Shown one piece after another: positions 20,032 through 36,357 of a DNA stretch of 64,000 bases; positions within the stretch are counted from its first letter, which is position 1, and each line of letters opens with the position of its first letter. The stretch is from contig PLWQ01000012.1 of the NCBI GenBank assembly GCA_003165595.1, positions 248,015 to 312,014 on the forward strand, read 5' to 3'. This DNA comes from Fibrobacterota bacterium (GTDB lineage Bacteria; Fibrobacterota; Chitinivibrionia; Chitinivibrionales; FEN-1185). The notes beneath the pieces are model-generated. The model was given only the letters and a program-made list of their open reading frames with translations, did not search any database and was not told the origin of the DNA. Made by a program: the position numbers and the translations under genes.

Positions 20032-20780
20032 GGAAGAATGTACCCGTACGCTTGCAGAATGTCGCGGGACTGCGTGTCGAAAAGATAATTGATAAAACGC
20101 TGGGATATGCCGGGATTGTTGTCCGTACCGTAACGGCACTCAACAACGCCCTGAGCAATAGGATCGTAGAGCGAGCTGTCGATTTCCGCCCATTTCCCCT
20201 TTGTTTTCATCTGTGGGCCAAGCACAATAGCCTTAGCATTAAAGCCGATGTCGGCAGAGCCCGTAACAATGTACTGCGCGGTCTGGGAAATGCTTTCCCC
20301 GTACACGAGACGGGAAAGGACTCCATCGTAGACCTTTGCATTCTTAAGCGCCTTTACCGACTCGCGGCCATACGGCGCGGTCCTGGGGTCGGGAACGGCT
20401 ATGGTTTTCACGGCCGGGTCGGTCAACACGGAAATTCCCTTGCCGACGTCAATGTCCTTTGTCGTCCACAAAACGAGTTTCCCATACGCATACACTTTCG
20501 GCTTGTCAACGGCAAATTCATGGACGAAAAGGCTCTCCGGATAATCCATATCGGCCGAAACAAAAACGTCAAATGGCGCGCCGTTTCTTATTTGCGTTAC
20601 AAACTTGCCGGAAGCGCCATAGATGACTTTTACTTCGCCGCCGGATTTGGCAAACGCAGTTTTTATCTCCTCCATGGCATACTGCATGTTCGCCGCGCAG
20701 GCGACGGTGATCTGGGAATAAACAGTCTGGCAGAAAAATAACAGGGCAACCGGTATGGCATAGTTGCACATCTTAATCAT
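20028..20780 (-). CDS. modA: Periplasmic molybdate-binding protein ModA
   Basis: 250 residues with a signal peptide ending VYSQ. Family landmarks are ITVACAANMQYAMEEI at the mature N-terminus, VIYGASGKFVTQI, NGAPFDVFVSADMDYP, IAVPDPRTAPYG and the hinge segment ADIGFNAKAIV. Oxyanion ligands in this family come from the AAN(M), GAS(G) and TAPYG loops, all present. It may bind molybdate or tungstate. It follows the porin gene by about 110 nt and is probably in one transcript with it. Confidence 0.94.
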   Translation of the reverse strand: MIKMCNYAIPVALLFFCQTVYSQITVACAANMQYAMEEIKTAFAKSGGEVKVIYGASGKFVTQIRNGAPFDVFVSADMDYPESLFVHEFAVDKPKVYAYGKLVLWTTKDIDVGKGISVLTDPAVKTIAVPDPRTAPYGRESVKALKNAKVYDGVLSRLVYGESISQTAQYIVTGSADIGFNAKAIVLGPQMKTKGKWAEIDSSLYDPIAQGVVECRYGTDNNPGISQRFINYLFDTQSRDILQAYGYILP

Positions 20781-20891: not shown

Positions 20892-22208
20892 TCAGAATTG
20901 GACTTGAAAATTAACCGCAACCATGTCGCCGCGCACGGTCACGTTTCCATTTGCGTCCGGCGCCGCACTCTGATAGTTGGATTTCGGCCTTCCTCCTTGC
21001 TTGATATAATGTGCAGCGATTTTAAGATTGTTTTTATTCAGGTACCAGTTGAGCCCGGCATCCAAAATGTGGTCGACACCGTTGGGATAGACCGTTGACT
21101 TCGCATCGCCGTCAAATTCGGTGTACATGAGCGCCGGTTCGAGAAACTGGTCCTTGGGAAGCGGAATGTCGTACCCGCCCCTGATATGATAGACCCTGTC
21201 GGTAAAGTTTGCGGCCGACGCTTTCACTAAACCGCCATGGTAAGAAATACCGTTGACGCTGCGGGACATAACATCGTATTCACCGTCGATATTGAGCCCC
21301 ATGAAATTTCCCACAAAGTCTCCGCCGAGGCTTCCGTTTTTCTGGAACCCACCCACATACTTTACAGCACCGGAATACGCCTTTGTGACGGCATTATACT
21401 TTACTGCGCTGGTGTCCCATGTTTCGTCCGTCGCACCCTGATAGCTGTAATGACCTCCCAGCGTTATTCCCTTGCGCTGCCCGAAGAAGTTGATCTCGGG
21501 AGAAAGACGATACGAAGGCATGTCTGCGTCAAAAAAGCTTACTGCGAGCCGGCCGACCCCCAGCGGATGCCATTTTCGGGGCCCGCCGTCCGTGCCGGCA
21601 ATCAATCCCTGCGTTGGATCAAATCCTCCTAGATTGTACGCCACCCCGACGAATTTTGAACCGTAAAACCCGCCGATATTCACGCCGGTTTCACGTCCGC
21701 TTGTCCTGCCTGTTAAAAAGGACCGCAGGTACATGCTCGTTAACCCTTTGTCAAGAGAATTGACCCCTGCGTCGGGAGCGATGTTTTCATGTCCGCTTTG
21801 CGGCCGGAAATACCCGAAGGTGATATTCGCAAACGTTGAATCAAGCGCGTAGCTCATGTACAAGTCATAGAGCTGGAAGGTGGTATTGGTGGTGGCCTGT
21901 GCAGTGCCCAGCGAACCCGTGAACTGGTCTTTGCCGAGATTATCAAAGGCAAAGATAGTGGAATAGGTAAGTCCCGGGATCGCCTGCCCCTTCACGCCGA
22001 CCCTGCCTTGTTTTAAAAAAAGATCGGCGCACGAAGAGGTGGCAGGCACGTCATTGGGATTCTGCGTGTATGCTCCCCACAATTGGTATGATTGTGTAAG
22101 TTCGCAAGAGCTTTTCCCGTCGTTGAACGTGAGCTTAGGGCCGGCAAAAACCACACAAAAGCAAACCAAGCCAAATAGACATGCCGAAACGAAAGCGCGT
22201 GCTTTCAT
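20892..22208 (-). CDS. Outer-membrane porin (phosphate-selective OprO/P-like), first gene of the mod operon
   Basis: 438 residues. The second ATG (22208) is preferred since GGAAAGGG then lies 6 nt upstream. A signal peptide (AFVSACLFGLVCFCVVFAG) precedes beta-rich sequence with alternating patterns and aromatic ends, closing in VAVNFQVQF, a typical C-terminal outer-membrane strand. Blocks such as NITFGYFRPQSG and GVGRLAVSFFDAD recall OprO/OprP-type porins. With a ModE operator on its promoter and modA behind it, diffusion of oxyanions is the likely job. Confidence 0.7.
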   Translation of the reverse strand: MKARAFVSACLFGLVCFCVVFAGPKLTFNDGKSSCELTQSYQLWGAYTQNPNDVPATSSCADLFLKQGRVGVKGQAIPGLTYSTIFAFDNLGKDQFTGSLGTAQATTNTTFQLYDLYMSYALDSTFANITFGYFRPQSGHENIAPDAGVNSLDKGLTSMYLRSFLTGRTSGRETGVNIGGFYGSKFVGVAYNLGGFDPTQGLIAGTDGGPRKWHPLGVGRLAVSFFDADMPSYRLSPEINFFGQRKGITLGGHYSYQGATDETWDTSAVKYNAVTKAYSGAVKYVGGFQKNGSLGGDFVGNFMGLNIDGEYDVMSRSVNGISYHGGLVKASAANFTDRVYHIRGGYDIPLPKDQFLEPALMYTEFDGDAKSTVYPNGVDHILDAGLNWYLNKNNLKIAAHYIKQGGRPKSNYQSAAPDANGNVTVRGDMVAVNFQVQF

Positions 22209-22252
22209 AAGCATCCCTTTCCATTAAATGAAAAATGGCTGACTAAACATTC

Positions 22253-22278
22253 TTGTTATGTAAAATATTATACAACGG
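22253..22278 (-). promoter_or_regulatory. ModE operator overlapping the porin-modA promoter
   Basis: TTGTTATGTA-N6-TATACAACGG, an inverted repeat matching the ModE consensus (CGTTATATA, 6 nt, TATATAACG) in both arms. It lies 45 nt before ATG 22208 and covers a candidate -10. Confidence 0.8.
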
Positions 22279-22429: not shown

Positions 22430-23236
22430 CTATTCGGTTACCGCAACAATGACCTGCGAGGCATTGAACACGGCGCATACCTCGCTGCCCAGGGAAAGCT
22501 TCATGCTTTCTGAGCTTTTTTTAGTGATGGTGGCGACAATGGTCCTGTTGCCGTCGAGTGCGATCTTTATTTCGTTGTTCACAGCGCCCTTTGTTATCCA
22601 AATGACTTTTCCGCACAGACGGTTCATGGCGCTCGTTTTGGTTTCTTCATCATCGACAACCATGAGGATCACGGCCGAAGCCTTGATAAGCGCCGTCGCT
22701 TTTCCGCCCTTCCTCAGGTCAAGCGCCCGAGCGCTTTCGTTTGTGATAACCGCCGTGATCGAGTCCTTTTCGCTGATGCGGAGCACGACTTCGGCTGATA
22801 CCGGTCCACGCACTATCCTATCGATCGTGCCGGAAAACTGGTTGCGCGCGCTGGTTTTCACGATGAGGCCCCTTGCGAAATCGGTAAAAAAAGCAAAGTC
22901 GTTCTTTCTCCCGGATAGGGTTTTCGTGATAATTTCGAATTGCCGCTGCTGGTGACCGTACTCATCGAGGATCTTTTTACCGTAGTCCGACAGTCTGCAT
23001 CCGCCACCGTGTCTGCCGCCCGTGCTGGTGACGACAAGCGATTTGGACGAAAGGTTGTTGAGCCTGTCGATAAGATCCCAGGCGGTCTTGTAGCTGATGC
23101 CGACTTCTTTGGCGGCCGAGGTGATCGATCCGAGTTTGTCAACGCTTTGAAGAAGATCGATGGCGTTTTTTTCGAGCAGGTGGCGTCCACCGAACAGGAG
23201 CCACAGTGGGCCGAAAGAGGGGGAATTGGAGTTCAT
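22430..23236 (-). CDS. modE: Molybdate-responsive transcriptional regulator ModE
   Basis: 268 residues, full length for the family. The N-terminal winged helix (AIDLLQSVDKLGSITSAAKEVGISYKTAWDLIDRLNNL, residues about 24-61) is followed by the GGRHGGGCRLSDYG wing and a linker. Two Mop domains follow (from KTSARNQFSGTID near 127 and KTSAMNRLCGKV near 200). Molybdate or tungstate binding between subunits of the Mop dimer promotes DNA binding. GGA lies 5 nt before ATG 23236. The three ModE boxes in this window are its expected targets. It is convergent to none and reads in the same direction as the mod operon. Confidence 0.95.
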   Translation of the reverse strand: MNSNSPSFGPLWLLFGGRHLLEKNAIDLLQSVDKLGSITSAAKEVGISYKTAWDLIDRLNNLSSKSLVVTSTGGRHGGGCRLSDYGKKILDEYGHQQRQFEIITKTLSGRKNDFAFFTDFARGLIVKTSARNQFSGTIDRIVRGPVSAEVVLRISEKDSITAVITNESARALDLRKGGKATALIKASAVILMVVDDEETKTSAMNRLCGKVIWITKGAVNNEIKIALDGNRTIVATITKKSSESMKLSLGSEVCAVFNASQVIVAVTE

Positions 23237-23414: not shown

Positions 23415-23843
23415 TTACTGCTTAATCGCCAGAATAACGTGCGAAGCTTTGACGAGCGCGCAAATGGTCTCGCCATTTTTCAGCTTCATGTCGTCAAGGC
23501 TTTTTTTGGTAATAGTGGCTACGATGGAATTCCCGTCGTCAAGATGTATGGTTACTTCGTCGGTCACCATGCCTTCGACGATTCCGTCCACCTTACCGCA
23601 GAACCGGTTCTTGGCGCTGGTCTTTACATGTTCGTCAGGTTCCATAAGAATTACCGACGAGGCCTTTATGAGAGCGGTAGCTGTATCGCCTTTCTTAAGG
23701 CCGAGGTATTGGGCGCTTTCGTTGGTGATCACGGCTGTCACGCTGTTTTCTTTACTGATGTGCAAAACGACTTCAGCCGATACCGGACCGTGAACAACCT
23801 TTTCGATGACGCCCGTAAGTTGGTTGCGTGCGCTTGTTTTCAT
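23415..23843 (-). CDS. Di-Mop cytoplasmic molybdate-binding protein (molbindin/ModG-like)
   Basis: 142 residues from ATG 23843 (AAGGAGCGAGGAC upstream). It consists of two Mop domains only, beginning MKTSARNQLTGVIEKVVHG and KTSAKNRFCGKVDGIVEG. It is very similar to the C-terminal half of ModE next door, so it probably arose by duplicating that half. Molbindins store or buffer molybdate or tungstate as hexamers. It has its own leader with an inverted repeat at 23890-23914. Confidence 0.9.
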   Translation of the reverse strand: MKTSARNQLTGVIEKVVHGPVSAEVVLHISKENSVTAVITNESAQYLGLKKGDTATALIKASSVILMEPDEHVKTSAKNRFCGKVDGIVEGMVTDEVTIHLDDGNSIVATITKKSLDDMKLKNGETICALVKASHVILAIKQ

Positions 23844-24385: not shown

Positions 24386-24480
24386 CTTCGAGGGTATGGC
24401 AATCACTATAATGATTGGCGCGAAGCACCATTACCATACCATAAGGTAACGAAGTGACAATGCGCTCGCTATGGGATTCA
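24386..24480. repeat. Dispersed repeat, second type, copy B
   Basis: Near-identical to 7060-7157: GAGGGTATGGCAATCACTA, GATTGGCGCGAAGCACCATT, ACCATACCATAAGG, AACGAAGTGACAATGCGCTC, GCTATGGGATTC. The last bases form the stop codon region of the receptor gene. Confidence 0.7.
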
Positions 24481-26664
24481 ATCCCAATTGAAATTCGTAT
24501 GGAGGTTGACAAAGAACGTACGTCCCTCCTCCGGATATCCTGCTTCTAAAAAGTAGTTCTTATCAGAGACATTCCTTACTCCCCCCTCGAATGACGCGTT
24601 TGCACCCAGAGGAACATTTAATGATGCATTCCAGAGAGCGTACTCGGGAACCGTTGATCCTTGACTTGTCGTATAGCGCCAAGAATCGTATTCTGCACTT
24701 ATAAGGGCATAGCATCCGGTGATCGGGGTATATTTGACATATCCGACGACTTTGCCCGGAGGTATGTCGGTAAATTTGATCGCCGGATGAGAGAGGTTGT
24801 GTTTGTCTAGATAGCTGGCGTTTGCGCCAATCTCCAACGCTTTCGCCCACTCAACATCGTGAAAAACCGTAGCGTCAAGGCTCAGTTCAACTCCCGGCAT
24901 CTCGGCCTCACCGGTATTCTGCATCTGTGCACGTGCATTGGCATCCAGCACGCCTGCTTTAATCACGCTGTCAACCGACTGTATCGCATCATACAAATGC
25001 GTGTAGAAAAGGCTCACATGGCCGGATAATGACCATTTCCCCAGATTCAATCCCGCATCATAGGCCGCCTCATAATTAACGGCATCTTCAGGTTGAAGAG
25101 TAGGATTGGGAATCGCCGTGCCCAGCTTGTAGGAATATCGATCCTTGAGCGTCGGGAACCTTGTCTTGCGCGCTATCGATATACTGGCATTCTGTGAACT
25201 ATTGATATCAATTGTCGCCTTGCCCTCCGCATTAAAAGCTTGGGCGTTGTTGCTCGGGAAAGGGACTATCGAGTCAAAAACATTCTGAAATATCTTACCG
25301 TTGTAATGCGAGTAGAAATTGTCCGCTTCAACACTTGACCGGTTATCATAGGAAATTCCTCCTGTCAAGTTGAGAATCTTGAGAATAGTGGCGCCGTCCT
25401 CTAAACCAAGCGAAAACGTGTTGTCCTTGAAATGCCGTAAAGGCTCTTCCTGAAACGGTTTGGTGTTGGCTACCTTGACGGTGTCGTAGGCATTATGTTC
25501 TTCATGATAGTCTCGTTTGCCGTGAAGGGCGACACTCATCTCGTTTCCCGGAATAATGGTAGTGCCGAGTTCAACGGCGCCGCCTGCTGTCCAGTCATCA
25601 TAATTGCTTTTAAAAGAAGACCTTTTCTTGAATGTCGAATAGGTCGAATCGTCACAAGCGAAAAGGCTGTTGCTCAACTCATTATAATAGACCGGAACCT
25701 TGAGGGAAAAATTATCGGAAAGCACGGTTTTTGAAGACAGGTAGACGCTCTGTTTGTCCCAATAGGGCCAATACCAGTAGCGTACCATGCCCGTGGGATC
25801 GACGGTCGGCGGTACACCTTTTTCCCCATGTTGATTATCATAGGAGAGTGCATATTCATCACCTGGCGCCGGGTCCCACCCGATTTTTGCACTCGCCTTT
25901 GCATCACGGTGATATGAATTTGCGCGTAACCCGCCACTCTGGAGCACAGTCGGGGTAAATGCTTTCGACAACTCATAATTGCCTTTGTCAAGATCGGAAA
26001 TCGAGCCCATCAGAAAAAAATTACCCAATCGAGACCCTACGCCTATGTTCATGAGACTGCCGTTTAAATGGGGCATAAGCGTTGAGTCGCGCTTGGTGTC
26101 GACATACCCCATGGTGCCCACATCCGCTTGCAGTTCGAGCTTGTGCACCGGTTTCCGGGTAACCAGATTGATCGCTCCCCCAATTGCATTCGGGCCGTAG
26201 AGTACCGAAGAATATCCTTTTTCAACCTTTATTTCCGAATAATCGAACGTCGTGAAACGTCCCAGGTCGACATATCCGTCGTACGGCACATAAATCGGAA
26301 CGCCGTCGATATAGAGGGGAACCGAGCGCAGATCAAATCCTCGGATATATACTTGCGACTCGTTTCTTGGACCGATATCGGAAACGTTTACTCCGGGAAG
26401 AAGCGAAAGTGCGCGGGCAACATCGGTGCGGCCGAATTCCTTCATTTGTGCACTGGTGACAACATCCTTATTCTGTTGTTTTTTCTCGCTGCCGGTGACA
26501 ACAACGGTTCCAAGCGAAAAAACCGATGATGTATCCTGCTTGAGCGCCGTGTCACGCTGACTTGTGCCGGTAACATCAGCGGCTCTCGATGGAAATGCAT
26601 TTACTATAAGGCATAATGAAAACAGGATTAAGGAGTGATTGGTTATTGGGTGCGCACGAGACAT
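24478..26664 (-). CDS. TonB-dependent outer-membrane receptor under ModE control
   Basis: 728 residues. A signal peptide (to about FPSRAAD) is followed by a TonB-box-like FSLGTVVVTGSEKK, a plug domain (MKEFGRTDVARALSLLPGVNVSDIGPRNESQVYIRGFDLRSVPLYIDGVP type sequence, about 60-160) and a 22-strand barrel ending FVNLHTNFNWD. The plug sequences resemble receptors for metal chelates. A near-perfect ModE box lies 60-85 nt upstream. TonB, ExbB, ExbD and a FecBCD-like importer are encoded just upstream in the same direction. A molybdenum or tungsten compound is the inferred substrate. Confidence 0.88.
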   Translation of the reverse strand: MSRAHPITNHSLILFSLCLIVNAFPSRAADVTGTSQRDTALKQDTSSVFSLGTVVVTGSEKKQQNKDVVTSAQMKEFGRTDVARALSLLPGVNVSDIGPRNESQVYIRGFDLRSVPLYIDGVPIYVPYDGYVDLGRFTTFDYSEIKVEKGYSSVLYGPNAIGGAINLVTRKPVHKLELQADVGTMGYVDTKRDSTLMPHLNGSLMNIGVGSRLGNFFLMGSISDLDKGNYELSKAFTPTVLQSGGLRANSYHRDAKASAKIGWDPAPGDEYALSYDNQHGEKGVPPTVDPTGMVRYWYWPYWDKQSVYLSSKTVLSDNFSLKVPVYYNELSNSLFACDDSTYSTFKKRSSFKSNYDDWTAGGAVELGTTIIPGNEMSVALHGKRDYHEEHNAYDTVKVANTKPFQEEPLRHFKDNTFSLGLEDGATILKILNLTGGISYDNRSSVEADNFYSHYNGKIFQNVFDSIVPFPSNNAQAFNAEGKATIDINSSQNASISIARKTRFPTLKDRYSYKLGTAIPNPTLQPEDAVNYEAAYDAGLNLGKWSLSGHVSLFYTHLYDAIQSVDSVIKAGVLDANARAQMQNTGEAEMPGVELSLDATVFHDVEWAKALEIGANASYLDKHNLSHPAIKFTDIPPGKVVGYVKYTPITGCYALISAEYDSWRYTTSQGSTVPEYALWNASLNVPLGANASFEGGVRNVSDKNYFLEAGYPEEGRTFFVNLHTNFNWD

Positions 26665-26721
26665 AGGAATCCTTTCGGAAAAGAATGGATGAAAGTCCCC
26701 GGATTAGTTGCCTGACAAATA

Positions 26722-26747
26722 GCGTTATATATTTTTCTATATTACGA
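26722..26747 (-). promoter_or_regulatory. ModE operator before the TonB-dependent receptor
   Basis: GCGTTATATA-N6-TATATTACGA. The best match of the three to the ModE consensus, with one clear mismatch in the second arm. It lies between the DUF364 gene stop (26789) and the receptor start (26664), so it serves the receptor. Confidence 0.85.
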
Positions 26748-26788
26748 TGAGTGACATATGACTCCTTTGAATATGTTGACGAGGATAA

Positions 26789-27595
26789 TTACTCAGAACC
26801 TTTCAGATTCACTTCCGCAGCGCCGGATCTGTCATCGAATAGTTTAGGGGAATCAGGCCTTGTGATGTTGATTTTCTGCAATGCGCCTTGCGGAGCATGC
26901 ATAATGCTGCCTCCACCCATCCCGAAATAGCGAAGAGTTTTGTTGACATCCATGATTCGTGAAGTGCCGAGCCGATGCAGACCCAATTTGAAGAGGCTGG
27001 GCGTGAGCGGCACCGTGGGCCCCATTATGACACGGGTTGTTGCGTTAGGGGTCCTGCAAATTACCTCCCCGAACGTCCCGTTCACGAGCGTGAGCCCGGT
27101 CATGAATACCAGTTTCGCGCGGGAAAGCACGCCATGCGAATCGTCCCAACGGATGTCCCCCGGTCTGGGCAAAAGCTCCACAATCGATACCGGCCGCCCT
27201 TCATCGCGCCACATCTCCGCATCATGAAAATGGCCGATAAAGCAGGTTGGGCGTGTCTTGGTTTGCTCGGAAAACGGGTCTATTGCCGAGCTTACCGTGA
27301 ATTCGGGAACCGGTGGGATCACGCATTTCAGGCAGGCCATGCCCACGGCAATCCGAAGAACGTCCGTCGAAGCGAGGTATTCTTGCGCGATTTCCGCCGC
27401 CTTCCGTCCAATCAGATCGCCCAGCCAGGTGTCCCGGGGATTTTCCGTGAGCCCGGGAGTGGCCGAGAAGCAGGTTGACATTTCATAGCGCCCGGCTTTG
27501 ACCACCACCCAGTGATGGAAGAGATGGATGTCCTCCATCAGAGTTGAATAGTCCGTGATAGCGGAAATGAGCGTTTCACGTACAATTGTTTCCAT
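26789..27595 (-). CDS. DUF364 (putative heavy-metal chelation) protein, copy A
   Basis: 268 residues. The C-terminal Rossmann-like DUF364 domain is recognised by CFIGHFHDAEMWRDEG, VSIVELLPRPGDIRWDDS, LVFMTGLTLVNGTFGEVI, VIMGPTVPLTPSLFKLG and RIMDVNKTLRYFGMGGG. The N-terminal part is the DUF4213 enolase-like region. Structures of relatives suggest metal-ligand binding, but no reaction is established. It is the last gene of the fmdE-to-DUF364 operon. Confidence 0.8.
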   Translation of the reverse strand: METIVRETLISAITDYSTLMEDIHLFHHWVVVKAGRYEMSTCFSATPGLTENPRDTWLGDLIGRKAAEIAQEYLASTDVLRIAVGMACLKCVIPPVPEFTVSSAIDPFSEQTKTRPTCFIGHFHDAEMWRDEGRPVSIVELLPRPGDIRWDDSHGVLSRAKLVFMTGLTLVNGTFGEVICRTPNATTRVIMGPTVPLTPSLFKLGLHRLGTSRIMDVNKTLRYFGMGGGSIMHAPQGALQKINITRPDSPKLFDDRSGAAEVNLKGSE

Positions 27596-27637
27596 AAGAT
27601 TTCTTCTTCTACAAGTCGAACAACAATGTAACTCTAG

Positions 27638-28432
27638 TCACCTGACGTCGGCCGGATACAGCTTCACCATGTGCGCGCCCTGTTTGAAGATTGATCGGTC
27701 GCCTCCCTGCGCCACATGTTGCCAGATCCTGTCGGCATCGATAACCGTGGTGCCGGCCAGGGACGCGATTCCTTTACTGAACCACAAAGGGGTCAGCGGG
27801 ACACTCGGACCCACCATAACCATGCAGGCGTTGCGGCCCAATTCCATAAGCCGGGGCAATGTCTTGTTGGTAAACGTAACGCCGGTCATAAACAGGAAAT
27901 CCTGATCTTCCAAAATGTATTCGCACGCCGGATCAGGGAAATCGCCCTCCAGGGGGTTCCGCTCCAGGATGGAAAGCCGGCACATGGTCGAAAGCTCGGC
28001 CAGGTCCGGAAAGTGACCCACCACGGTCACCTTCTTGCCGGTGAGCTCGGGTTTCATGACGATAAAGACACTCTCGTTGACCTGCGACTCCGGCTGAGTC
28101 TTCCAAACATTCGCCATAGTGGAAGGCGCATTGACATAGGCGTTGATCGCCGCAACACCAAGGGCCGCCTCATAGGGCTGCCACGACTTGACAAAAGCAG
28201 CGAGTTCACGCAACCTGCGGCCCTTGAAGGCTCCGGCGCCCGAAATGGAGTGGGAACCATGCGGAGGCGTCATGGCGACGCCAACCCCCACGGAACGCAC
28301 GAGTGTCCAGTGAATGCCGACAAGCACGTCGTCGACCACCAGGTCGTCGGGGATCAGCGAAATCAGTTGATCGTACAACTCCCACTTCGATGGAGTGGTT
28401 CCTGATGAATCGCGGGAATCCGAGTTCTTCAT
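27638..28432 (-). CDS. DUF364 (putative heavy-metal chelation) protein, copy B
   Basis: 264 residues with the same layout as copy A but well diverged: VTVVGHFPDLAELS, LSILERNPLEGDFPDPACEYIL, FLFMTGVTFTNKTLPRL, VMVGPSVPLTPLWFSKG, TTVIDADRIWQHVAQGG. The GVAMTPPHGSH segment near residue 55 belongs to the DUF4213 part. ATG 28432 overlaps the xdhC stop (ATGA), so it is coupled to xdhC. The two copies likely act as a pair. Confidence 0.8.
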   Translation of the reverse strand: MKNSDSRDSSGTTPSKWELYDQLISLIPDDLVVDDVLVGIHWTLVRSVGVGVAMTPPHGSHSISGAGAFKGRRLRELAAFVKSWQPYEAALGVAAINAYVNAPSTMANVWKTQPESQVNESVFIVMKPELTGKKVTVVGHFPDLAELSTMCRLSILERNPLEGDFPDPACEYILEDQDFLFMTGVTFTNKTLPRLMELGRNACMVMVGPSVPLTPLWFSKGIASLAGTTVIDADRIWQHVAQGGDRSIFKQGAHMVKLYPADVR

Positions 28433-29277
28433 TTCCCCTCCGATTTGTCAGGTGTGATGGTTCCCTCCTCATGCCAGGGAAATCTGAAATGCTCCGGCGT
28501 GCCTTTGTTGATGAGGAGGATTATCTGGGCCACTATTGCCAAAGCGATCTGCTCCGGAAGATTGTTGGCGATTTTCAAACCCACCGGCGAGTAGACCCTT
28601 TCATCAACATGTCCGCCCCTGGAACGGATGTTGTTGACAACGATTCCGATTTTATTCTGGCTGCCGATCATGCCAATGTAGGGAACATCTTTGTTCCGAA
28701 GGATCTGTTCCAGACAAGTCTCGTCGTGTTTGTGCCCATGAGTCAGTATGACGCAGTAACTCGCACTGGTCAGCTTCATCGTCTCACTCAACGATTCATA
28801 CGGTTTACATACACACTCGACTGCCGAAGGAAACCGTTCGGCGGATGAGAAATCTTCCCGGTTGTCAAACACGCGGTATGGCATATTGAGGATTTCGCAA
28901 TACTTGGAAACCTTTTCACCGATATGGCCTCCGCCAAAAATCACGACTTCAGCCTCGGGCAAAACAGGCTCGATGAACACGGTTACCGATCCGCCGCAAA
29001 GGCCCTGCACCGTCCTGTCAGGTGTTACCTGCCACAGGTCTCCCGCAAGAGAGAAATCCAAGCTGATGCAGCGGTTGTCTTTGATGGCCTTTAAAGCTTC
29101 TGCACGGCTGATGTGCTCAACCGGTCCTCCTCCGACCGAACCGGCAATCTCGTTCGCCACGCTCACCACCATCTTGGAGCCGACACCCCGTGGCACCGAC
29201 CCTTCGGCCTTGACGATTGTGACGATCGCGCAGGCAATGCCCTTGTTCTTCCATTCATTCAAACTCTTGAGCCACAT
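28429..29277 (-). CDS. XdhC/CoxI-family molybdenum cofactor maturation protein
   Basis: 282 residues from ATG 29277, with AAGGAGCG upstream (the frame is open from 29316 but without a site). The N-terminal XdhC_CoxI domain has VKAEGSVPRGVGSKMVV and GSVGGGPVEHI. The C-terminal Rossmann domain has VVIFGGGHIGEKVSKY and YIGMIGSQNK. XdhC binds molybdenum cofactor and delivers the sulfurated form to xanthine dehydrogenase-type enzymes. No such enzyme is encoded here. Its place in a metal-import operon suggests a role in Mo handling. Confidence 0.85.
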   Translation of the reverse strand: MWLKSLNEWKNKGIACAIVTIVKAEGSVPRGVGSKMVVSVANEIAGSVGGGPVEHISRAEALKAIKDNRCISLDFSLAGDLWQVTPDRTVQGLCGGSVTVFIEPVLPEAEVVIFGGGHIGEKVSKYCEILNMPYRVFDNREDFSSAERFPSAVECVCKPYESLSETMKLTSASYCVILTHGHKHDETCLEQILRNKDVPYIGMIGSQNKIGIVVNNIRSRGGHVDERVYSPVGLKIANNLPEQIALAIVAQIILLINKGTPEHFRFPWHEEGTITPDKSEGK

Positions 29278-29331
29278 GTTCGCTCCTTTCAACTTTGTGT
29301 GTATCCAACCGGACACGTGACGCGGCGGCCC

Positions 29332-29997
29332 TTACTCCATCCGATATTCCAACGGGAACTTCAAGATAACCCGTACCGGCGGATGGGGAAATGGGGCCGC
29401 CCGTCTGACCGTGGCAACGGCATCCCGATCGAGTATCGAAGCCCCTGATCCCTTGAGTATCTCAATACTGTCAACGTCGCCGTCTTCGCGTACGCAGAAT
29501 GAGAGTAAGACCGTGCCGGAGATTTTCATTTCGAGCGCCATGGGCGGATAAACTGCTTTGCGGTAGATGATGTCCCGGATGTATTCGAACTGCTCTTTCA
29601 AATACCGCTGCCTCTCCCTCTCCCGCACTTGGCCCGTGTCCTGCGGCATTCCTAGCGGGCCGATCGAGGCAACCTGGACCAACTGATTGTCAACTCCGCT
29701 TGGTTCGGCATCCGTGAACTGCGCCGTATCGGCAATGATATCTTCGGCGGTTGTGTCGGGAAATTTCTCTTCTTCCTTAACCGGCGGAGGCGCGGGTCTT
29801 CTGGCGTGCCGAGGAGCCGGTTCCGGCACGGGGACCGTTGATGCCGCCGGCTGTATCACCGGCGATTTCTCGATGTTAAAGTCGATCGTGAGCGTACGAG
29901 CCGCCGGAGCGGAAAACGCCGCAATGCCGGTAACGGCGGCGATAAAAACCCCATGGATCGTCAGCGACACAAGCGTTGCACGTTTCTGATACTTCAT
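29332..29997 (-). CDS. tonB: TonB energy-transducing protein
   Basis: 221 residues. One N-terminal membrane segment (VSLTIHGVFIAAVTGIAAF) precedes a Pro/Ala-rich periplasmic spacer (VPVPEPAPRHARRPAPPPVKEEE). The C-terminal TonB domain follows: YPPMALEMKISGTVLLSFCVREDGDVDSIEILKGSG...LDRDAVATVRRAAPFP. The C-terminal domain contacts TonB boxes of receptors. ATG 29997 overlaps the exbD stop in ATGA. It is dedicated, by position, to the receptor at 24478. Confidence 0.92.
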   Translation of the reverse strand: MKYQKRATLVSLTIHGVFIAAVTGIAAFSAPAARTLTIDFNIEKSPVIQPAASTVPVPEPAPRHARRPAPPPVKEEEKFPDTTAEDIIADTAQFTDAEPSGVDNQLVQVASIGPLGMPQDTGQVRERERQRYLKEQFEYIRDIIYRKAVYPPMALEMKISGTVLLSFCVREDGDVDSIEILKGSGASILDRDAVATVRRAAPFPHPPVRVILKFPLEYRME

Positions 29998-30374
29998 CGC
30001 ACGGACTCCGTCTGCAAGCTGACCCGCGTGAACCCCCGGGTCTTGACGACATCGAGCACGTCCACGAACGTCTGAAGGGCAATTTTCCTGTCTGCGCGGA
30101 TAAGGATCGGTGTGGACCGATCTATGTGCATGAGCGCCTCAAACAGCGCCCGTTGGCACACGGCAGAGGAGTTGTAGTAGATGGTGCCTGTGCGGTCGAT
30201 CTCGATTGTCTGTATTCGCAGCAGATCCTCCCGGTTCTTGGATGCCTGCGGCAGCTGCAACGGGATGGATCCCGCCGCGACCAGCGTTGATGTGGTGAGC
30301 ACGATGGTGAGCAGCACCAGCATCACGTCAACAAACGGTATCACGTTGATATAGTCGAATTCCTTTTCATCCAT
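29994..30374 (-). CDS. exbD: ExbD/TolR-family biopolymer transporter
   Basis: 126 residues from ATG 30374. One helix near the N-terminus ([21 protein letters not shown]) holds the Asp that carries protons (FVD), and the periplasmic domain ends [19 protein letters not shown]. With ExbB it forms the proton-driven motor for TonB. It overlaps exbB by 8 nt. Confidence 0.92.
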
Positions 30375-30789
30375 GATGAATGTCCCACTCAAGGAGCAGC
30401 CTTTTGACTTTCCGCAAAAGGAAATTATAGAGTACCACGGACGGTATTGCGACAAGAAGGCCTGCCGCCGTCGCCTTGAGCGCCAGGGCAAGGCCAACCA
30501 TGATCTTGCCCGTGTCCATGAATCCCTGGTTGCCCAGGGTGTAGAATGTCAACATGATGCCCAGCACCGTGCCCAGCAGGCCCACATACGGCGCGCTGCT
30601 GCCGATGGTGGCGATTACATGAACCCGGGACGTCAGCATGAGTTCCAGTTCCTTTTTGCTGCCAAAGTCGGCGGGCCGGATGCGGCGGTACGTGAGCCAC
30701 CGTTCGATCGCCACGCTCACCGAGACTACGCTGAGAAATACCAGAAGTCCGATGATGCCGAAGTCGATCCCGAATTTCAGCCATTCCAT
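30367..30789 (-). CDS. exbB: ExbB/TolQ-family proton channel protein
   Basis: 140 residues, a short member. Three helices are visible: [25 protein letters not shown], then [22 protein letters not shown], then [24 protein letters not shown]. The GLLGTVLGI and AIPSVVLYN blocks are family hallmarks. It lies 30 nt after molA and just before exbD. Confidence 0.92.
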
Positions 30790-30819
30790 GGTTTACTTCC
30801 CATCGCCAGTGTCGTACGT

Positions 30820-31902
30820 TCAATGCGCAAGCGCCCGTTCCAGCAGCTCCGCGCATTCCGTGTCATTGAGCTTTTTGAAATAGAACAGTTCGTAGAATCG
30901 CCTTGTTTCTGCGCGCATGTCGATCTTCATCCGGTCCGGATACAGCAGATTGGCCAGCCACCGCAGGCCGATAATACGGTTGACAGAGGGCGGCCGATCG
31001 AACCAGCCGAAGGGCAGTGATGGTATCTCGAATACCTTCTTGTTCTTTACGGCATCGAGGTTCCGCCACGCGGGGTCGGACATGATTTTTGCGAAGTTTT
31101 CCGTGCCGTGCGCGAACCCGTGGTCCACCTGCACGATGATCATCTCCGGTTTCCACAGCAGAAGCTGCTCGAACGAGACTGCTGCGCGGCCGTACCCGCG
31201 CACCATGGGTACATCGGCCACGTTATCTCCGCCCACCATATCAAGCACCTCGGCATGCGTTGACCCCTTCGGGTCCGTTTCCAGCCCGTTGAGTCCTTCG
31301 GCGTAGTAAACCCGTATACGCTTCTGCGCCGGCATCGACGCAACGACAGCGGCGACCGTATTGAGGGTCTGCCGGCAATAACCGGCAAGGGTATCGGCGC
31401 GGCGCTCCTCACCAATGAGGCCGCCCACAAAGCGGTACGACGTGTCAAGCGATGTCAGCCGACCGTCGACCATCACCACCGGCGTTCCAAGTTGTTTCTC
31501 CATGCGCTCCGCTGCGGAAACGTCTGTTTTGTCAATATACCCCATCGACAGAACGATGTCGGGTTTCGCCTTGATGATCACCTCGGGGTTACCGGTGGTA
31601 CTTTTGCCGAACCACCCTCCGAGAAGCGGTTTTTTGTTGTACTCCTCAACAAGGAATCGTCGTTCGTCCGCGTCAGGGTTCCATGTTGTGCCGGTGATTT
31701 TGCCGGGCGCAAGTGTGTACATCAACACCTCGCCCATCGGCGACGTCGAGTAGACGGAACGTATGGCAGAAGGAATAGTGACATGGCGGCCTGCCATGTC
31801 CACGATCGTTCTTACGGAAGGAGACCCGGCCCAGCAGGCGCCCGTTGCGAGCGCCGCGAAGACCAGCACCGGAGTCATTACGCACAGATTCTTGTTTGTC
31901 AC
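30820..31902 (-). CDS. MolA/FecB-like periplasmic metal-oxyanion or chelate-binding protein
   Basis: 360 residues with a signal peptide (VLVFAALATGACWA). It is a type III substrate-binding fold: RTIVDMAGRHVTIPSAIRSVYS, KPDIVLSMGYIDKT, then a long helix and a second lobe with VEVLDMVGGDNVADVP-like and WKPEMIIVQ. The PPSVNRIIGLRWLANLLYP tail is characteristic of MolA/FecB-type proteins. Haemophilus MolA is such a protein and binds molybdate and tungstate with low affinity. ATG 31902 overlaps the ATPase stop in ATGA. The substrate is inferred from the ModE box and neighbours. Confidence 0.78.
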   Translation of the reverse strand: MTNKNLCVMTPVLVFAALATGACWAGSPSVRTIVDMAGRHVTIPSAIRSVYSTSPMGEVLMYTLAPGKITGTTWNPDADERRFLVEEYNKKPLLGGWFGKSTTGNPEVIIKAKPDIVLSMGYIDKTDVSAAERMEKQLGTPVVMVDGRLTSLDTSYRFVGGLIGEERRADTLAGYCRQTLNTVAAVVASMPAQKRIRVYYAEGLNGLETDPKGSTHAEVLDMVGGDNVADVPMVRGYGRAAVSFEQLLLWKPEMIIVQVDHGFAHGTENFAKIMSDPAWRNLDAVKNKKVFEIPSLPFGWFDRPPSVNRIIGLRWLANLLYPDRMKIDMRAETRRFYELFYFKKLNDTECAELLERALAH

Positions 31903-32675
31903 TTAGCACCTCCCATGGCCGGAACGCACAAAAATCGGCCTTCCGCCACTGAAATAATATCAACGTCGATCCCATACATTCTTTTGAGCAGCGTACAGGT
32001 TAGCACTTCTTTGGGTGGACCGTCGGCCGCGATGCGGCCGTCCAGCAGCGCTATCACCCGGGTGGCGCACGCGAATGCGTGGTCCGGGACATGGGTCGTG
32101 ATCATCACTCCCATGTCTTGGGTTGCAAGTTCACGGATAAGATTCAGCGCCCGGATCTGGTTGCCGAAATCAAGGTGCAACGTGGGTTCGTCCATGATGA
32201 GAAATTGCGGCGACTGCGCCAGCGCGCGCGCGATCAGCACCAGTTGGCGTTCACCCCCGCTAATCTGCGCGTAGTTGCGGTCGCACAGATGACCGATATG
32301 CAGCAGGTCCATGACGCGCGCCGCTTCGCGCCTGTCATCCGCCGAGGGAATGGAGAAGGCGCCGATAAAGGGCGTCCTTCCCATGAGCACGACGTCCATG
32401 GCGCTGAAGGGAAATGGCGGGATGTGGATCTGTGGGACATAGGCCAGCGTCCGAGCTCGTTCCCGCGTTGTGAACGTGCAGGCGGACCGCTGATCGAATT
32501 GGATATCTCCTCGCGAGGGAATGAGCCCAAGAATCGCCTTGAAAAGCGTGGTCTTGCCCGAGCCGTTGGGTCCCAGCAAGCAGACGACCTCGCCCGAATG
32601 CAACGATGCGCTGATTTCCGAAATAACCGTGCGCGACCCGTATCCCGCCGATATGTTGCTTATCGCCAGTTTCAT
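31899..32675 (-). CDS. MolC/FecE-like ABC transporter ATPase
   Basis: 258 residues from ATG 32675. The frame is open to 33569, but that part is the shadow of the permease gene. Walker A LGPNGSGKTTLF, Q-loop YVPQIHIPPFPF, signature ISGGERQLVLIARAL, Walker B FLIMDEPTLHLDFG and switch ITTHVPDHAF are intact. The type is that of siderophore/cobalamin/Mol importers. ATGA overlaps link it to the permease upstream and MolA downstream. Confidence 0.9.
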   Translation of the reverse strand: MKLAISNISAGYGSRTVISEISASLHSGEVVCLLGPNGSGKTTLFKAILGLIPSRGDIQFDQRSACTFTTRERARTLAYVPQIHIPPFPFSAMDVVLMGRTPFIGAFSIPSADDRREAARVMDLLHIGHLCDRNYAQISGGERQLVLIARALAQSPQFLIMDEPTLHLDFGNQIRALNLIRELATQDMGVMITTHVPDHAFACATRVIALLDGRIAADGPPKEVLTCTLLKRMYGIDVDIISVAEGRFLCVPAMGGAK

Positions 32676-33835
32676 ACCCACCCCCTGCGCCCCCGGGCGA
32701 GCAGGAATACGAAAAACGGCGCGCCGATGATCGCGGTCAGGATGCCGATGGGTATCTCGATGGGGAACGCGACGCGCGCCACGGTGTCGACGACGAGTAG
32801 GAACGTACCGCCCAGGAGCAGCGATGCGGGGAGCAGCACCGGGAAAGAGGGGCCCACCAGCATACGCGCCAGGTGCGGAACCACCAACCCGATCCAGCCG
32901 ATCATACCGCTGATGGACACCGCCGCGGCGGTCATGAGCGTTGAAGACACGATCGCGATCGCCCGTATCCGACCCGCGTCCACTCCCATGGCTTTGGCTT
33001 CCTCGTCGCCGAACGAGAGTACGTTGATCCGCCACCGCACGAGGAGTAAAGGGATTGCGCCCGCTACGGTCGCGATTGCGGCGATGCGGGCGTCGGACAA
33101 ATTGACCGAGGCCAGGCTTCCCATGAGCCAATAGGTGATCGCGGGGAGCTTTGAGTATGGATCGGCGACATACTTGACAAGCGAAAGCAAGGCGGAAAAC
33201 AGGGTGCCGGTCACGATGCCGCACAGTACGAGCGTCAATGTCTTTTCTCCGCGCTTTCCGACAAAGGCGGACAGCATGACCGTGGCAAACACCGAGACAA
33301 GGCCAAAGCCAAAGGAAAAAAGCTGGATCCCGACCACCCCGACCGAAAGCAGTATCGCCAGGGCCGCACCGAACGCCGATCCCGCGGTGACACCCAGAAG
33401 AGAAGGATCCACCATGGGGTTGCGGAATATACCTTGGTAGCACGCGCCAGAACCCGACAGGGCCATGCCGACAAGAACCGCCGCACACATGCGCGGCAGA
33501 CGGACATGGAACAAAACGGTGCTGCTTGCACCGAACACCATGGTGTCGTGGTGCCATAGTGATTTCCACACCAAGTGCAGCAGTTCACCGATACTGACGG
33601 GGTAACGTCCAACTGTCAAGGCTGCCACGGCCATCACGCACAGGGCGATCGCCAGGCCAGCCAGAACCAGGGGTCCCTTTGGCCCCACAGAATTGACCGA
33701 CTGGTTTGTTGTGCCGCCGTTCGTTCCTTTGTGCGTCTCTGCGGTCCCGGCAGTTGCCAGATGAGAATTAGCCGGTTCCGGACCATGCGGCTGATCATTC
33801 TTGACAGGCGGTTTACTCGTGGTGTTCGGTATCAT
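32672..33835 (-). CDS. MolB/FecCD-like ABC transporter permease
   Basis: 387 residues from ATG 33835; the frame continues to 34360 only as a shadow of fmdE. About 50 hydrophilic N-terminal residues precede ten FecCD-type helices. Landmarks are LPRMCAAVLVGMALSGSGACYQGIFRNPMVDPSLLGVTAGSAFGA and SISGMIGWIGLVVPHLARM, the ATPase-coupling loop. No good ribosome site precedes 33835, so a later start such as near residue 50 is possible. It forms the membrane pore of a type II (BtuCD/MolBC-like) importer. Confidence 0.88.
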   Translation of the reverse strand: MIPNTTSKPPVKNDQPHGPEPANSHLATAGTAETHKGTNGGTTNQSVNSVGPKGPLVLAGLAIALCVMAVAALTVGRYPVSIGELLHLVWKSLWHHDTMVFGASSTVLFHVRLPRMCAAVLVGMALSGSGACYQGIFRNPMVDPSLLGVTAGSAFGAALAILLSVGVVGIQLFSFGFGLVSVFATVMLSAFVGKRGEKTLTLVLCGIVTGTLFSALLSLVKYVADPYSKLPAITYWLMGSLASVNLSDARIAAIATVAGAIPLLLVRWRINVLSFGDEEAKAMGVDAGRIRAIAIVSSTLMTAAAVSISGMIGWIGLVVPHLARMLVGPSFPVLLPASLLLGGTFLLVVDTVARVAFPIEIPIGILTAIIGAPFFVFLLARGRRGWV

Positions 33836-33849
33836 CGAAAGTTGATGTG

Positions 33850-34401
33850 TCAATGTGCCGTGTAGTAGCTGCCAGACGAGCAGGCCATGCATACCGGCCC
33901 TTTTTCCCCGATTGTATCCTTGCCGTCGAAGACCTTTTCTCCGCACTCGACGCAGGTGACAACCCGCTTTGGCTTTCCGGGCATCTCTTCGGGCCGCAGG
34001 TTGACCTTCACTTCCCGCCATGCGAGCATCTCTTCGTCCGGGATGTAAAGTGCCTGTCGAACCGCATCTTCGTCTTCGCCGTTGATCGTGCGATCCATGG
34101 CAACGTTTAGACGCCATGAATGGTTCGTGGTGACATTCATGAATGTCGCGGCCATCCTGCCGTAGTCCTTGAGTTTGAAGCTCCGCCGCCCCAGGCGCGT
34201 ACCGGTGACCGTCTGGATGGCGTCGGCGATGCAGCGATCGTTCTCCACCACGACGATCAGGTCCTTGTAGGTGGACGGCGCCGCCAGGGACAACCCCTTG
34301 ACGGCAAGGCGCACTCCCAGCACCTGCCCCATGCAGAGGTGACCGTGGAATGTGACGCATTTGTCCAGAAGCTCGCCGAGTTCTTCCTTTGTTTTGCTCA
34401 T
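33850..34401 (-). CDS. FmdE/FwdE-family protein (formylmethanofuran dehydrogenase subunit E-like)
   Basis: 183 residues. ATG 34401 is preferred over 34419 because TGAGG lies 9 nt upstream. The FmdE domain is clear: CVTFHGHLCMGQVLGVRLA, VVVENDRCIADAIQTVTG, TRLGRRSFKLKDYG, and a C-terminal zinc ribbon CVECGEKVFDG..CMAC. FmdE proteins occur in many organisms that lack the dehydrogenase, often beside Fec-type importers, and have been linked to Mo/W metabolism. None of the other Fmd or Fwd subunits is here. It is the first gene of a ten-gene operon with a ModE box upstream. Confidence 0.85.
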   Translation of the reverse strand: MSKTKEELGELLDKCVTFHGHLCMGQVLGVRLAVKGLSLAAPSTYKDLIVVVENDRCIADAIQTVTGTRLGRRSFKLKDYGRMAATFMNVTTNHSWRLNVAMDRTINGEDEDAVRQALYIPDEEMLAWREVKVNLRPEEMPGKPKRVVTCVECGEKVFDGKDTIGEKGPVCMACSSGSYYTAH

Positions 34402-34517
34402 GATATTCAGCCTCATCACACTAAGGTTATGTTACCTCATTGAAATACCTTCGGAAACAGCTCATGAATTATGTTTACCCCGAAATTGACAGAATAAGAA
34501 GACAATGTCTTGCAGTT

Positions 34518-34543
34518 TCGTAATATACCTATTTATACAACGA
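34518..34543 (-). promoter_or_regulatory. ModE operator before the fmdE-mol-exb-tonB operon
   Basis: TCGTAATATA-N6-TATACAACGA, an inverted repeat with flanking TTT and AAA. Both arms match the ModE consensus with one or two changes. It is 117 nt before ATG 34401 and downstream of the mop remnant. Confidence 0.82.
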
Positions 34544-34589
34544 AAGCACAAAAAAACTTCCGCTGCATACAGCCACGGAAGCCTTGTGT

Positions 34590-34666: not shown

Positions 34667-35437
34667 TCAAGAAATGGCATCGTAGGTTGCCTTCACGGCG
34701 GCGACTAGAATAACGACAGCGAACACGCGTTGGAGCATACAGCAAGAGATCTTCTTCTCTGCTAGCGTCGCGCCGCAAAGTCCGCCGATGAGCGCAGCCC
34801 CTGCCAACGGCAAGACGATACTCAACTCAATTCCACCTCTAATTCCATGTGCTGCTAACCCAATGCCTGACAATGCTAATACCAGGACGGAATTCATTGC
34901 AGCCATCTGTTTTGGTCCTGCCAATCCGAGAAATAGAATGAGCGGCCCGAGAAACACGCCGCCCCCAATTCCCAGGAAACCTGAAAGGAACCCGATAACA
35001 AGCCCTGCCGGGATTCCTATTAAGAAAAGACGAAGACGCCCCGGATCTTTTTCCTGCTCTTGAGCATTTGGCGCAGCTCGAAACATCGCGATGGCGGCGA
35101 TTGCAAGGGTTGCCGCCAATAATGCAAAAAATATCTTCCGATCGGCTGTTATGAATCCACCCAGGAATGCAGCCGGCATGGCGGGTAATAAAAACGGCAG
35201 GATAAGTCTCCAATTCAAACGTCCGGCCAAACCGAAACGCAGTAATGCCGCCCCCGTCACTACAATGTTTAACAACAAGACAGTTGGCGTCATTGCAGCA
35301 GCGGACATTCCACAGAGGGACAAGATGGCAAGATATCCTGTGCCGCCACCGAGGCCGACGGATGCATATGCCCCGGCAACAACCATAACCAAAGGCACTA
35401 GAAGTAGAAAAGTCCCAAGCGTCAATGTATCTGACAT
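34667..35437 (-). CDS. TSUP (TauE/SafE) family permease
   Basis: 256 residues, eight helices. The duplicated family motifs are YASVGLGGGTGYLAIL near residue 25 and GFLSGFLGIGGGVFLGPLILFLG near 150, with the MAAMNSVLVLAL helix after the second. TSUP proteins export or import sulfite, sulfoacetate and other small anions. It follows the TupA-like gene by 23 nt and shares its operon, so an oxyanion or sulfur compound linked to Mo/W chemistry is plausible. Confidence 0.8.
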   Translation of the reverse strand: MSDTLTLGTFLLLVPLVMVVAGAYASVGLGGGTGYLAILSLCGMSAAAMTPTVLLLNIVVTGAALLRFGLAGRLNWRLILPFLLPAMPAAFLGGFITADRKIFFALLAATLAIAAIAMFRAAPNAQEQEKDPGRLRLFLIGIPAGLVIGFLSGFLGIGGGVFLGPLILFLGLAGPKQMAAMNSVLVLALSGIGLAAHGIRGGIELSIVLPLAGAALIGGLCGATLAEKKISCCMLQRVFAVVILVAAVKATYDAIS

Positions 35438-35460
35438 TTCATTCTCGCATTACCATTAAG

Positions 35461-36357
35461 TTATTTGCTTGCTTTTTGCTTGCCGGTCACCGCAAGGGGA
35501 AAGTTGGTCTGGCGTTTGAATTTTTGTACGCCGGAATTGGCTATGTACTCCTGTATTTTCGGGGAAGTCAGATACCCTATGAAAGTCATTGCATCAACGT
35601 AATGGGCGTCCGGATATTTCTGCGGGTTTGCAGCCAGGACCTCATAGGCGGTTACCAGCTTATTGTCCATGTTACCGTCGACCATGACGTTCATATCAAG
35701 GGTTTCCTGCTGTTGTATGAATGAAGGATAATGGACAATCGTATATCCCCTCTTTCTATTCGCTATCACGAGGGTCGCGTCCGTGCCGGCATTTGTTGTG
35801 ATATACCAGTCGCCCTTTGGCTCAATCTTCGCCAGTTTCCACATTTTCATTTCCAATCCGTAAGTGCCGGAGTTGTCTCCCCGGGAGAAAAACAGCGCTT
35901 TCTTCTTTGCTATAATTTTGAGCGCCTCGGTCGGGTCTTTCATTCCCCTTATACCCGCCGGGTCTTCCTTGGGACCGACAATCGCGAAGATCGAATACAT
36001 CACTTCTCTTAAATTGACCAAATATCCGTCGGCTACGAGTTTGTTTTCAATATCCTTTTCGTGCCCTATAAAAACATCTATTGGTTGCGCACTGTCGGAA
36101 CGCATGAGTTTGTCCCCGTCTCCGGTGCACAAGTTTAATTTCTTAATGGGTATGTTGTACTCTTTTGTGAACATGCCGATGAGTTCATCCGGCAGTTCGG
36201 TGGAGCAAAGGGTGGCTGGGAAAATTACTGCGAGCGTTTTTGAATCTCTTGATTCCGGAGGGGTTGGTTGAGCCGACATCACGGGTAAACCCGCCAAGGA
36301 TATCAGGACTGCTGAAAAACATAACAACCTGATACCTGAGACTTTGCCTCTAAGCAT
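35461..36357 (-). CDS. TupA-like periplasmic oxyanion-binding protein without its permease
   Basis: 298 residues with signal peptide (LLCFSAVLISLAGLPVMSAQ). The FFSRGDNSGTYGLEMKMWK segment near residue 155 is the TupA/WtpA-type hallmark. KRGYTIVHYPSFIQQ and SPKIQEYIANSGVQKFKRQ follow the same layout. TupA binds tungstate very tightly; related WtpA binds both. No TupB or TupC is in the window. ATG 36357 follows AGGGAGG and overlaps the anti-sigma gene by 8 nt, an unusual pairing that suggests sensing as well as transport. Confidence 0.75.
   Translation of the reverse strand: MLRGKVSGIRLLCFSAVLISLAGLPVMSAQPTPPESRDSKTLAVIFPATLCSTELPDELIGMFTKEYNIPIKKLNLCTGDGDKLMRSDSAQPIDVFIGHEKDIENKLVADGYLVNLREVMYSIFAIVGPKEDPAGIRGMKDPTEALKIIAKKKALFFSRGDNSGTYGLEMKMWKLAKIEPKGDWYITTNAGTDATLVIANRKRGYTIVHYPSFIQQQETLDMNVMVDGNMDNKLVTAYEVLAANPQKYPDAHYVDAMTFIGYLTSPKIQEYIANSGVQKFKRQTNFPLAVTGKQKASK

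Follow-up and report, generated by a model that had tools for sequence, protein, structure and literature searches.

The eleven-gene operon and its ModE boxes

We analysed a 64,000-nt stretch of DNA from a Fibrobacterota bacterium (contig PLWQ01000012.1, positions 248,015 to 312,014; hereafter the window, G000:C37:248015-312014), centring on an operon predicted to import a molybdenum (Mo) or tungsten (W) compound. Its eleven genes all lie on the minus strand, from 34401 down to 24478, in the order fmdE, FecCD-type permease, ATPase, MolA-like binding protein, exbB, exbD, tonB, xdhC, two DUF364 genes and a TonB-dependent receptor (TBDR) gene. An earlier interpretation made from the letters alone (the sequence-only reading) had named eleven genes of these families running in one direction, and each was confirmed by a match to the expected Pfam family. 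The same reading had described overlaps of 4-8 nt at most junctions. This was slightly generous, as five of the nine junctions between fmdE and the last DUF364 gene are overlaps of 4 or 8 nt, while the remaining ones leave 14, 30, 54 and 42 nt between the genes. The junctions are tight, and the reading frames of the operon are all intact.

The first gene, fmdE (33850..34401; PF02663, 90.9 bits), encodes a protein of 183 aa with an FHGHLC motif and a Cys-rich, zinc-finger-like C-terminal end, in which no signal peptide was seen. The following three genes together encode an ABC importer of the FecBCD/BtuCDF type, namely a FecCD/BtuC-type permease (32672..33835; PF01032, 272.9 bits), an ATPase of the FecE/BtuD type (31899..32675; PF00005, 96.3 bits) and a MolA-like periplasmic binding protein with a GTG start (30820..31902; PF01497 (Peripla_BP_2), 66.3 bits). 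The operon also encodes exbB (30367..30789; PF01618 (MotA_ExbB), 101 bits), exbD (29994..30374; PF02472, 78.5 bits) and tonB (29332..29997; PF03544 (TonB_C), 61.5 bits). The product of the xdhC-like gene (28429..29277, starting at ATG 29277 or at GTG 29316) matched the Pfam XdhC domains (PF13478 (XdhC_C), 113.5 bits; PF02625, 61.3 bits) and scored below the XdhC equivalog cut-offs (TIGR02964, 122.7 against 161.6 bits; NF045664, 199.3 against 350 bits). It is followed by a gene for a protein with DUF4213 and DUF364 domains (27638..28432; PF13938, 76.7 bits; PF04016, 111.6 bits) and by a second DUF364 gene (26789..27595; PF04016, 91.6 bits).

The receptor gene (24478..26664) is set off by 124 nt that contain a ModE box, and therefore has its own promoter region. 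Its product carries a Plug domain (PF07715, 83 bits) followed by a beta-barrel (PF00593, 83.4 bits), and belongs to a receptor subfamily that accompanies MolA-like genes. An alignment with 17 members of this subfamily, which are spread over Desulfobacterota, Campylobacterota, Pseudomonadota, Bacteroidota and Fibrobacterota, gave 28-43% identity, and the best match of the receptor came from Syntrophobacteraceae. Its PDB relatives match the plug only, the best at 48 bits. The AlphaFold2 model (pLDDT 79) matched the folds of FepA, BtuB, OprC and FecA, and a TVVVTG-like stretch near residues 53-58, noticed by eye, may be a TonB box.

We searched for ModE boxes using the palindrome CGTTATATA-N6-TATATAACG with up to 3 mismatches. 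Three boxes were found in the window against 0.01 expected by chance, and they are the sole matches in the whole 5.39-Mb genome. The first two, before fmdE (34519..34542, 2 mismatches) and before the receptor gene (26723..26746, 1 mismatch), had already been picked out by the sequence-only reading. The third (22254..22277, 3 mismatches), absent from it, lies 40 nt before the start of the porin gene of a porin-modA-mop-modB-modC operon and ties the receptor operon to ModABC. The pattern with a 7-nt spacer gave no match. Since an Rfam scan revealed no riboswitch in the window, ModE alone is proposed as the regulator here, probably acting on these boxes as a repressor.

The AlphaFold2 model of the binding protein (pLDDT 90.4) best matched the fold of 4pag from Sulfurospirillum deleyianum (Z 39.4), followed by 4ovk, 4hn9 and Haemophilus MolA (3psa; TM 0.75, Z 26.8, rmsd 3.2 over 297 residues). 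The earlier description of the protein as MolA-like thus holds for its fold. However, in our tree Haemophilus MolA (HI1472) sits on a long branch outside the family of 79 sequences (support 97/88), as does 4ovk, and the DRPPS motif conserved in the family is missing from Haemophilus MolA; the two proteins belong to separate families and are not orthologues. The binding protein of the window nests among Bacillota and Actinomycetota sequences (28 rows, 99/96), with Bacillota proteins as its closest relatives, and most TBDR-linked members form another clade. Because the binding protein has this position and the receptor is of a Desulfobacterota kind, the operon is a mosaic in which a Gram-positive-type inner-membrane importer is combined with a Desulfobacterota-kind receptor. 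That components of different lineages are nonetheless found together would suit a shared substrate.

Homologous loci and neighbouring genes

With the aligned binding protein as query against genome contigs, we gathered 79 homologous loci, many of which encode a TBDR, TonB, ExbB, ExbD, FmdE or DUF364 protein in addition to the FecCD-ATPase pair. A TBDR is encoded in 35 of them, and mod genes, ModE boxes or molybdenum cofactor (Moco) riboswitches were found in 22 of these 35. Likewise, mod, tup or modE genes are present in 15 of the 22 loci that have the same TBDR subfamily. The sequence-only reading had proposed looking for the same gene set with ModE boxes in other genomes; the combination is indeed recurrent, as the homologous loci and the window hold 25 boxes (at most 3 mismatches) against 0.4 in Markov shuffles, a count in which two boxes of bog_1184 appear twice (in L022 and L025). 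Most boxes of the homologous loci precede genes for a TBDR, TonB, MolA, DUF364, methyltransferase, ModE or ModA protein. Furthermore, 29 whole genomes contain 46 boxes with at most 2 mismatches, compared to 4 for the reversed pattern. Fourteen of the 46 lie inside MolA loci, which make up 0.5% of these genomes (0.23 expected, p about 1e-20), corresponding to an enrichment of about 60-fold.

The nearest relative with the system is a Fibrobacteres metagenome-assembled genome of the same order (G002; PLTF01000125, bog_1184). Locus L022, whose MolA is 61% identical, reads modE-DUF364-TBDR-fmdE-FecCD-ATPase-MolA-tonB-xdhC in one direction and has two ModE boxes. Elsewhere the genes follow Moco riboswitches (RF01055). 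In a Geobacter locus (L103), these lie before FecCD, before a methyltransferase-MolA-DUF364-TBDR unit and at xdhC; in Geobacteraceae (L047), before MolA-FecCD and before a TBDR gene; in L080, before a TBDR gene; and in Syntrophomonadaceae (L029), 54 nt before FecCD-ATPase-MolA. Two unrelated Mo/W-sensing devices, ModE boxes and Moco riboswitches, therefore converge on the same genes.

For comparison, we used 12 other FecB/TBDR loci from the same phylum, weak matches of the same binding protein with at most 20 kb fetched for each, 10 of which contain FecCD in that DNA. All 12 are free of ModE boxes, mod genes, XdhC, DUF364 and receptors of the TBDR subfamily. Rfam scans of seven of them showed cobalamin riboswitches in two and no Moco riboswitch in any. 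Mo/W evidence in 22 of the 35 TBDR-bearing loci versus none of the 12 controls gave p = 1e-4 (Fisher).

A second layout in the family includes a methyltransferase of 208 aa, present in 22 loci, often with a radical-SAM protein fused to a MolA-like domain. These fusions of about 600 aa, which begin with an AmmeMemoRadiSam-like radical SAM domain and end with a MolA-like binding domain, occur at L080:8131-9939 and in L032, L034, L036, L037, L040, L043, L045, L046, L048, L051, L053 and L082, usually beside the methyltransferase and FecCD; a binding-protein fold on a radical SAM enzyme is odd. Other unusual arrangements were observed. In Fibrobacter UBA1313 (L024:636-5375; L021:1-3176), MolA-like proteins are encoded beside nitrogenase-like (PF00148) and NifH-like genes and, in L021, beside a TonB-dependent-receptor-like gene as well. 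In Clostridia, a ModE DNA-binding domain is fused to a MocA/DVU_1551-type nucleotidyltransferase near FecCD-MolA genes (L033:1321-2262, L049:11226-12140, L064:8816-9712), and in Bacteroidota there are lone ModE DNA-binding domains, without Mop domains, before a TBDR-MolA pair (L057:254-640, L069:860-1219). Finally, L101:8442-9968 encodes a fusion of FmdE with a class I methyltransferase of a family that is free-standing in many related loci.

Through this last fusion, the iterated FmdE profile drifted. Matches of 264-302 aa in Campylobacterota and some Desulfobacterota are class I methyltransferases, the FmdE matches at L103 3534, L103 8947 and L047 8211 are methyltransferases too, and FmdE counts for the Campylobacterota and Desulfobacterota loci concerned are inflated. 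The iterated TonB profile, which also drifted (136 matches), was used at a strict cut-off only. Some proteins labelled Mop are full-length ModE, and those of 119-128 aa in L057 and L069 are the ModE DNA-binding domains. Weak matches to ModB (L084) and ModE (L092) were dropped.

Directly downstream of the receptor gene in the window, a series of minus-strand genes encodes, in the same direction, a di-Mop protein, ModE, a porin, ModA, a Mop protein, ModB, ModC and ModD. The di-Mop protein (23415..23843) is molbindin-like (TIGR00638, 134.7 bits). The modE product (22430..23236) scored below the NCBIfam equivalog cut-off (NF007957, 156 against 369 bits) and the helix-turn-helix cut-off (TIGR00637, 88 against 98.5 bits), and above that for its two Mop domains (122.6 against 55 bits); we count it as the ModE regulator of this genome. 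The mod operon comprises the porin-like gene (20892..22214; a weak ExtI porin match of 33 bits, below cut-off), modA (20028..20780; TIGR01256, 180 bits), a Mop/TOBE-domain gene (19621..20031; PF03459, 72 bits), modB (18953..19624; TIGR02141, 207.6 bits) and modC (18067..18951, assigned by its position after modB and its ABC ATPase sequence). The last gene of the series is modD (17059..17904; TIGR01334, 229 bits, above cut-off). The porin-like gene heads the modABC operon behind a ModE box, and this arrangement may provide a second, passive outer-membrane step under ModE control.

Upstream of the receptor operon, on the same strand, lies a homologue of tungstate-binding TupA (35461..36357), which at 110.6 bits falls short of the TupA equivalog cut-off of 400 bits (NF041772). 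It stands without TupB or TupC, is followed within 24 nt by a gene for a TauE/SafE-family membrane protein (34667..35437; PF01925, 107 bits), and no ModE box was found at it with our pattern. The pair (34667-36357) may form a further route for oxyanions; L056, L071 and L087 likewise contain TupA-like genes. Elsewhere in the window, two adjoining and very similar genes (10674-12062 and 12251-13648; 462 and 465 aa) resemble a tandem duplication, and a gene for a BadF/BcrA-type ATPase of 572 aa stands before one for a ferredoxin-like protein similar to the N-terminal region of NuoG (260-3371).

Proposed working, use of the metal and alternatives

We estimate at about 80% the probability that this system is a ModE-repressed, TonB-energised apparatus for acquiring a molybdenum and/or tungsten compound, an assignment made from sequence and gene context. 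The energy-driven outer-membrane route for such a compound put forward in the sequence-only reading is thereby supported by the boxes, the riboswitches, the linkage to mod genes and the clean controls. Its description of this route as parallel to ModABC also fits this genome, in which porin-modABC adjoins the operon under the same ModE boxes.

As cytosolic Mo or W falls, ModE would come off its boxes at the promoters of fmdE, the receptor gene and the porin-mod operon. The receptor would then bind a scarce or bulky Mo/W species and carry it across the outer membrane with energy from the TonB-ExbB-ExbD set that the operon encodes. The MolA-like protein would collect this species in the periplasm for import by FecCD and the ATPase, and the cytosolic FmdE, XdhC and DUF364 proteins may strip, convert or hand on the metal. 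Mop proteins would hold the metal, and the porin with ModABC would serve as a parallel route for free molybdate. Repression by ModE, a Mo/W species as substrate, the transport direction and what FmdE, XdhC and DUF364 do are inferred.

Three observations weigh against this interpretation. First, nothing in the DNA fetched for 13 of the 35 TBDR-bearing loci links them to Mo/W. Second, the reversed control pattern, at up to 3 mismatches, likewise occurs three times in the genome. Since it is equally frequent genome-wide, the weight of the boxes rests on their clustering rather than on their number: the three true boxes all fall inside 12.3 kb, each fronting a gene of this set. Third, the metal would have no recognised use in this host or in G002.

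This last point comes from family searches of two genomes, each 98% complete. The host genome gave no match to MoaC, MoeA, MoCoBD, XO, AOR/AFOR, nitrogenase or SO-family proteins, and its single PF00384 (DMSOR-family) match is NuoG by sequence. NuoG holds no molybdenum. By these searches, limited to the families named (MOSC and orange proteins are not among them), the host lacks the combination of MoaC, MoeA and at least one Moco enzyme expected of a Moco-type Mo user. In G002, where XO, AOR and nitrogenase were also outside the search, there was no match to MoaC, MoeA or the SO family, and the single PF00384 match is again NuoG. It is unlikely that missing sequence explains the absence of Moco genes from both genomes. 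MoaC is present in 27 of the 32 genomes searched, most of which carry the system; a Dysgonomonadaceae genome (L069/G179) also lacks matches to MoaC, MoeA and PF00384. The absence in the two Fibrobacterota hosts raises the question of other uses of Mo or W. A doubtful but conceivable answer is that the metal imported by this TonB-dependent ModE system serves outside the known pterin and nitrogenase enzymes, without a Moco pathway, and that FmdE, XdhC and DUF364 belong to a new handling pathway.

As to the imported form, we give a chelate, with the cell's own or a foreign metallophore, roughly the same odds as the remaining forms combined. We lean to a chelate because the methyltransferase and radical-SAM genes of the related loci suggest that an organic part of the compound may be worked on in the cytosol. 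The strongest competing explanation, which we regard as a real contender at clearly less than even odds, is the import of free molybdate, tungstate, or thiomolybdate or thiotungstate at very low concentration without any organic chelator. Many members of the family belong to sulfidic or anaerobic groups (Sulfuricurvum, Sulfurovum, Desulfobacterota, Chromatium), in whose settings thiomolybdates would form. Moreover, the copper transporter OprC is among the fold matches of the receptor, and Haemophilus MolA, the structural relative of the binding protein (Z 26.8), is a molybdate-binding protein according to its PDB title. However, this genome already has a porin and ModABC for the free oxyanion under the same regulator, and the methyltransferase, FmdE, DUF364 and radical-SAM genes of the loci speak for the processing of an organic part. 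In addition, FecCD-type permeases mostly carry chelates or cofactors.

Salvage of ready-made Mo/W cofactor, or of its pterin, from the surroundings, with XdhC taking over the cofactor, seems improbable to us. XdhC-type proteins do bind Moco, homologues are under Moco riboswitches, and both the host and G002 lack MoaC and MoeA. PMC13197769 cites a paper on the transfer of Moco to XdhC, and PMC2954201 proposed an action of DUF364 on a pterin or flavin derivative. We nevertheless rank salvage low because no Moco-using enzyme was found in the host, and G002 has only NuoG and no SO-family enzyme. The 27 genomes with MoaC, most of them carriers of the system, need no salvage. Furthermore, ModE senses the oxyanion and not the cofactor.

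Iron, B12 and haem are what most FecCD, FecB and TBDR proteins serve. The operon could instead encode an ordinary importer of a ferric siderophore, corrinoid, haem, or nickel or cobalt chelate, one that is only accidentally a neighbour of mod genes or merely cross-regulated by ModE. The best, weak NCBIfam matches of the receptor are indeed to haem, siderophore and B12 receptors; they fall far under the curated cut-offs (TonB-hemin, 114 against 317 bits; siderophore, 93 against 223.5 bits; B12, 79.8 against 599.7 bits). Links to ModE boxes, Moco riboswitches and mod genes are seen repeatedly in different phyla but not in the 12 control loci, making this explanation highly improbable. Least probable of all is a recently acquired, non-functional or vestigial relic, which would account for a host with no Moco pathway or Mo enzyme found and for the horizontal transfer implied by the mosaic ancestry, but sits poorly with intact reading frames, tight junctions and a relative in another family that keeps the same set with modE and boxes.

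Comparison with known systems

Iron, haem, cobalamin, nickel, copper and sugars are known to cross the outer membrane by energised transport. The sequence-only reading knew of no well-characterised receptor of this kind for Mo or W, and we too found nothing direct on one in open-access papers of PMC, where the term ModE is inseparable from 'mode' and 'model'. TonB-driven outer-membrane uptake of a Mo or W compound, very probably the function of this gene set, is a route not described in the open-access papers searched. A receptor subfamily spread over several phyla, with ModE boxes and Moco riboswitches, offers testable genes for the long-discussed metallophore-mediated uptake of Mo, as well as a means to assign many unannotated receptors in anaerobes.

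Two earlier remarks come close to this system. Ligand-gated channels near molybdopterin-binding proteins or molybdopterin riboswitches in Pelobacter carbinolicus were suggested, in one line, to transport metals; the excerpted text works out no substrate, gene set or regulon (PMC3543383). For the DUF364 protein Dhaf4260 (3l5o), the genomic neighbourhood was described as including molybdate, tungstate and vanadium transport, and an action of DUF364 on chelator-like or pterin-like molecules in metal uptake was proposed, whereas no TonB-dependent context or ModE control is reported in the excerpted text (PMC2954201).

Among characterised transporters, MolBCA of Haemophilus influenzae (HI1470-1472) shares a FecCD-type ABC importer and a related periplasmic molybdate-binding protein with our system. 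However, HI1472 falls outside the family described here and lacks its DRPPS motif, and we know of no TBDR, TonB, ModE, FmdE, DUF364 or XdhC partners for MolBCA. ModABC, WtpABC and TupABC also take up Mo or W, and ModABC adjoins the operon here under the same ModE boxes, but these are sulfate/molybdate-type transporters without an energised outer-membrane step. In a 2018 survey of about 5900 organisms, these three were the only high-affinity prokaryotic ABC systems for Mo and W, and TonB went unmentioned (PMC6147048). Finally, BtuB-BtuCDF, FepA-FepBCDG and similar systems combine a TBDR, TonB-ExbBD and a type II ABC importer, as does the operon of the window. In contrast to those systems, which are controlled by Fur or a cobalamin riboswitch, the present family is associated with ModE boxes or Moco riboswitches, and its receptor forms a separate subfamily.

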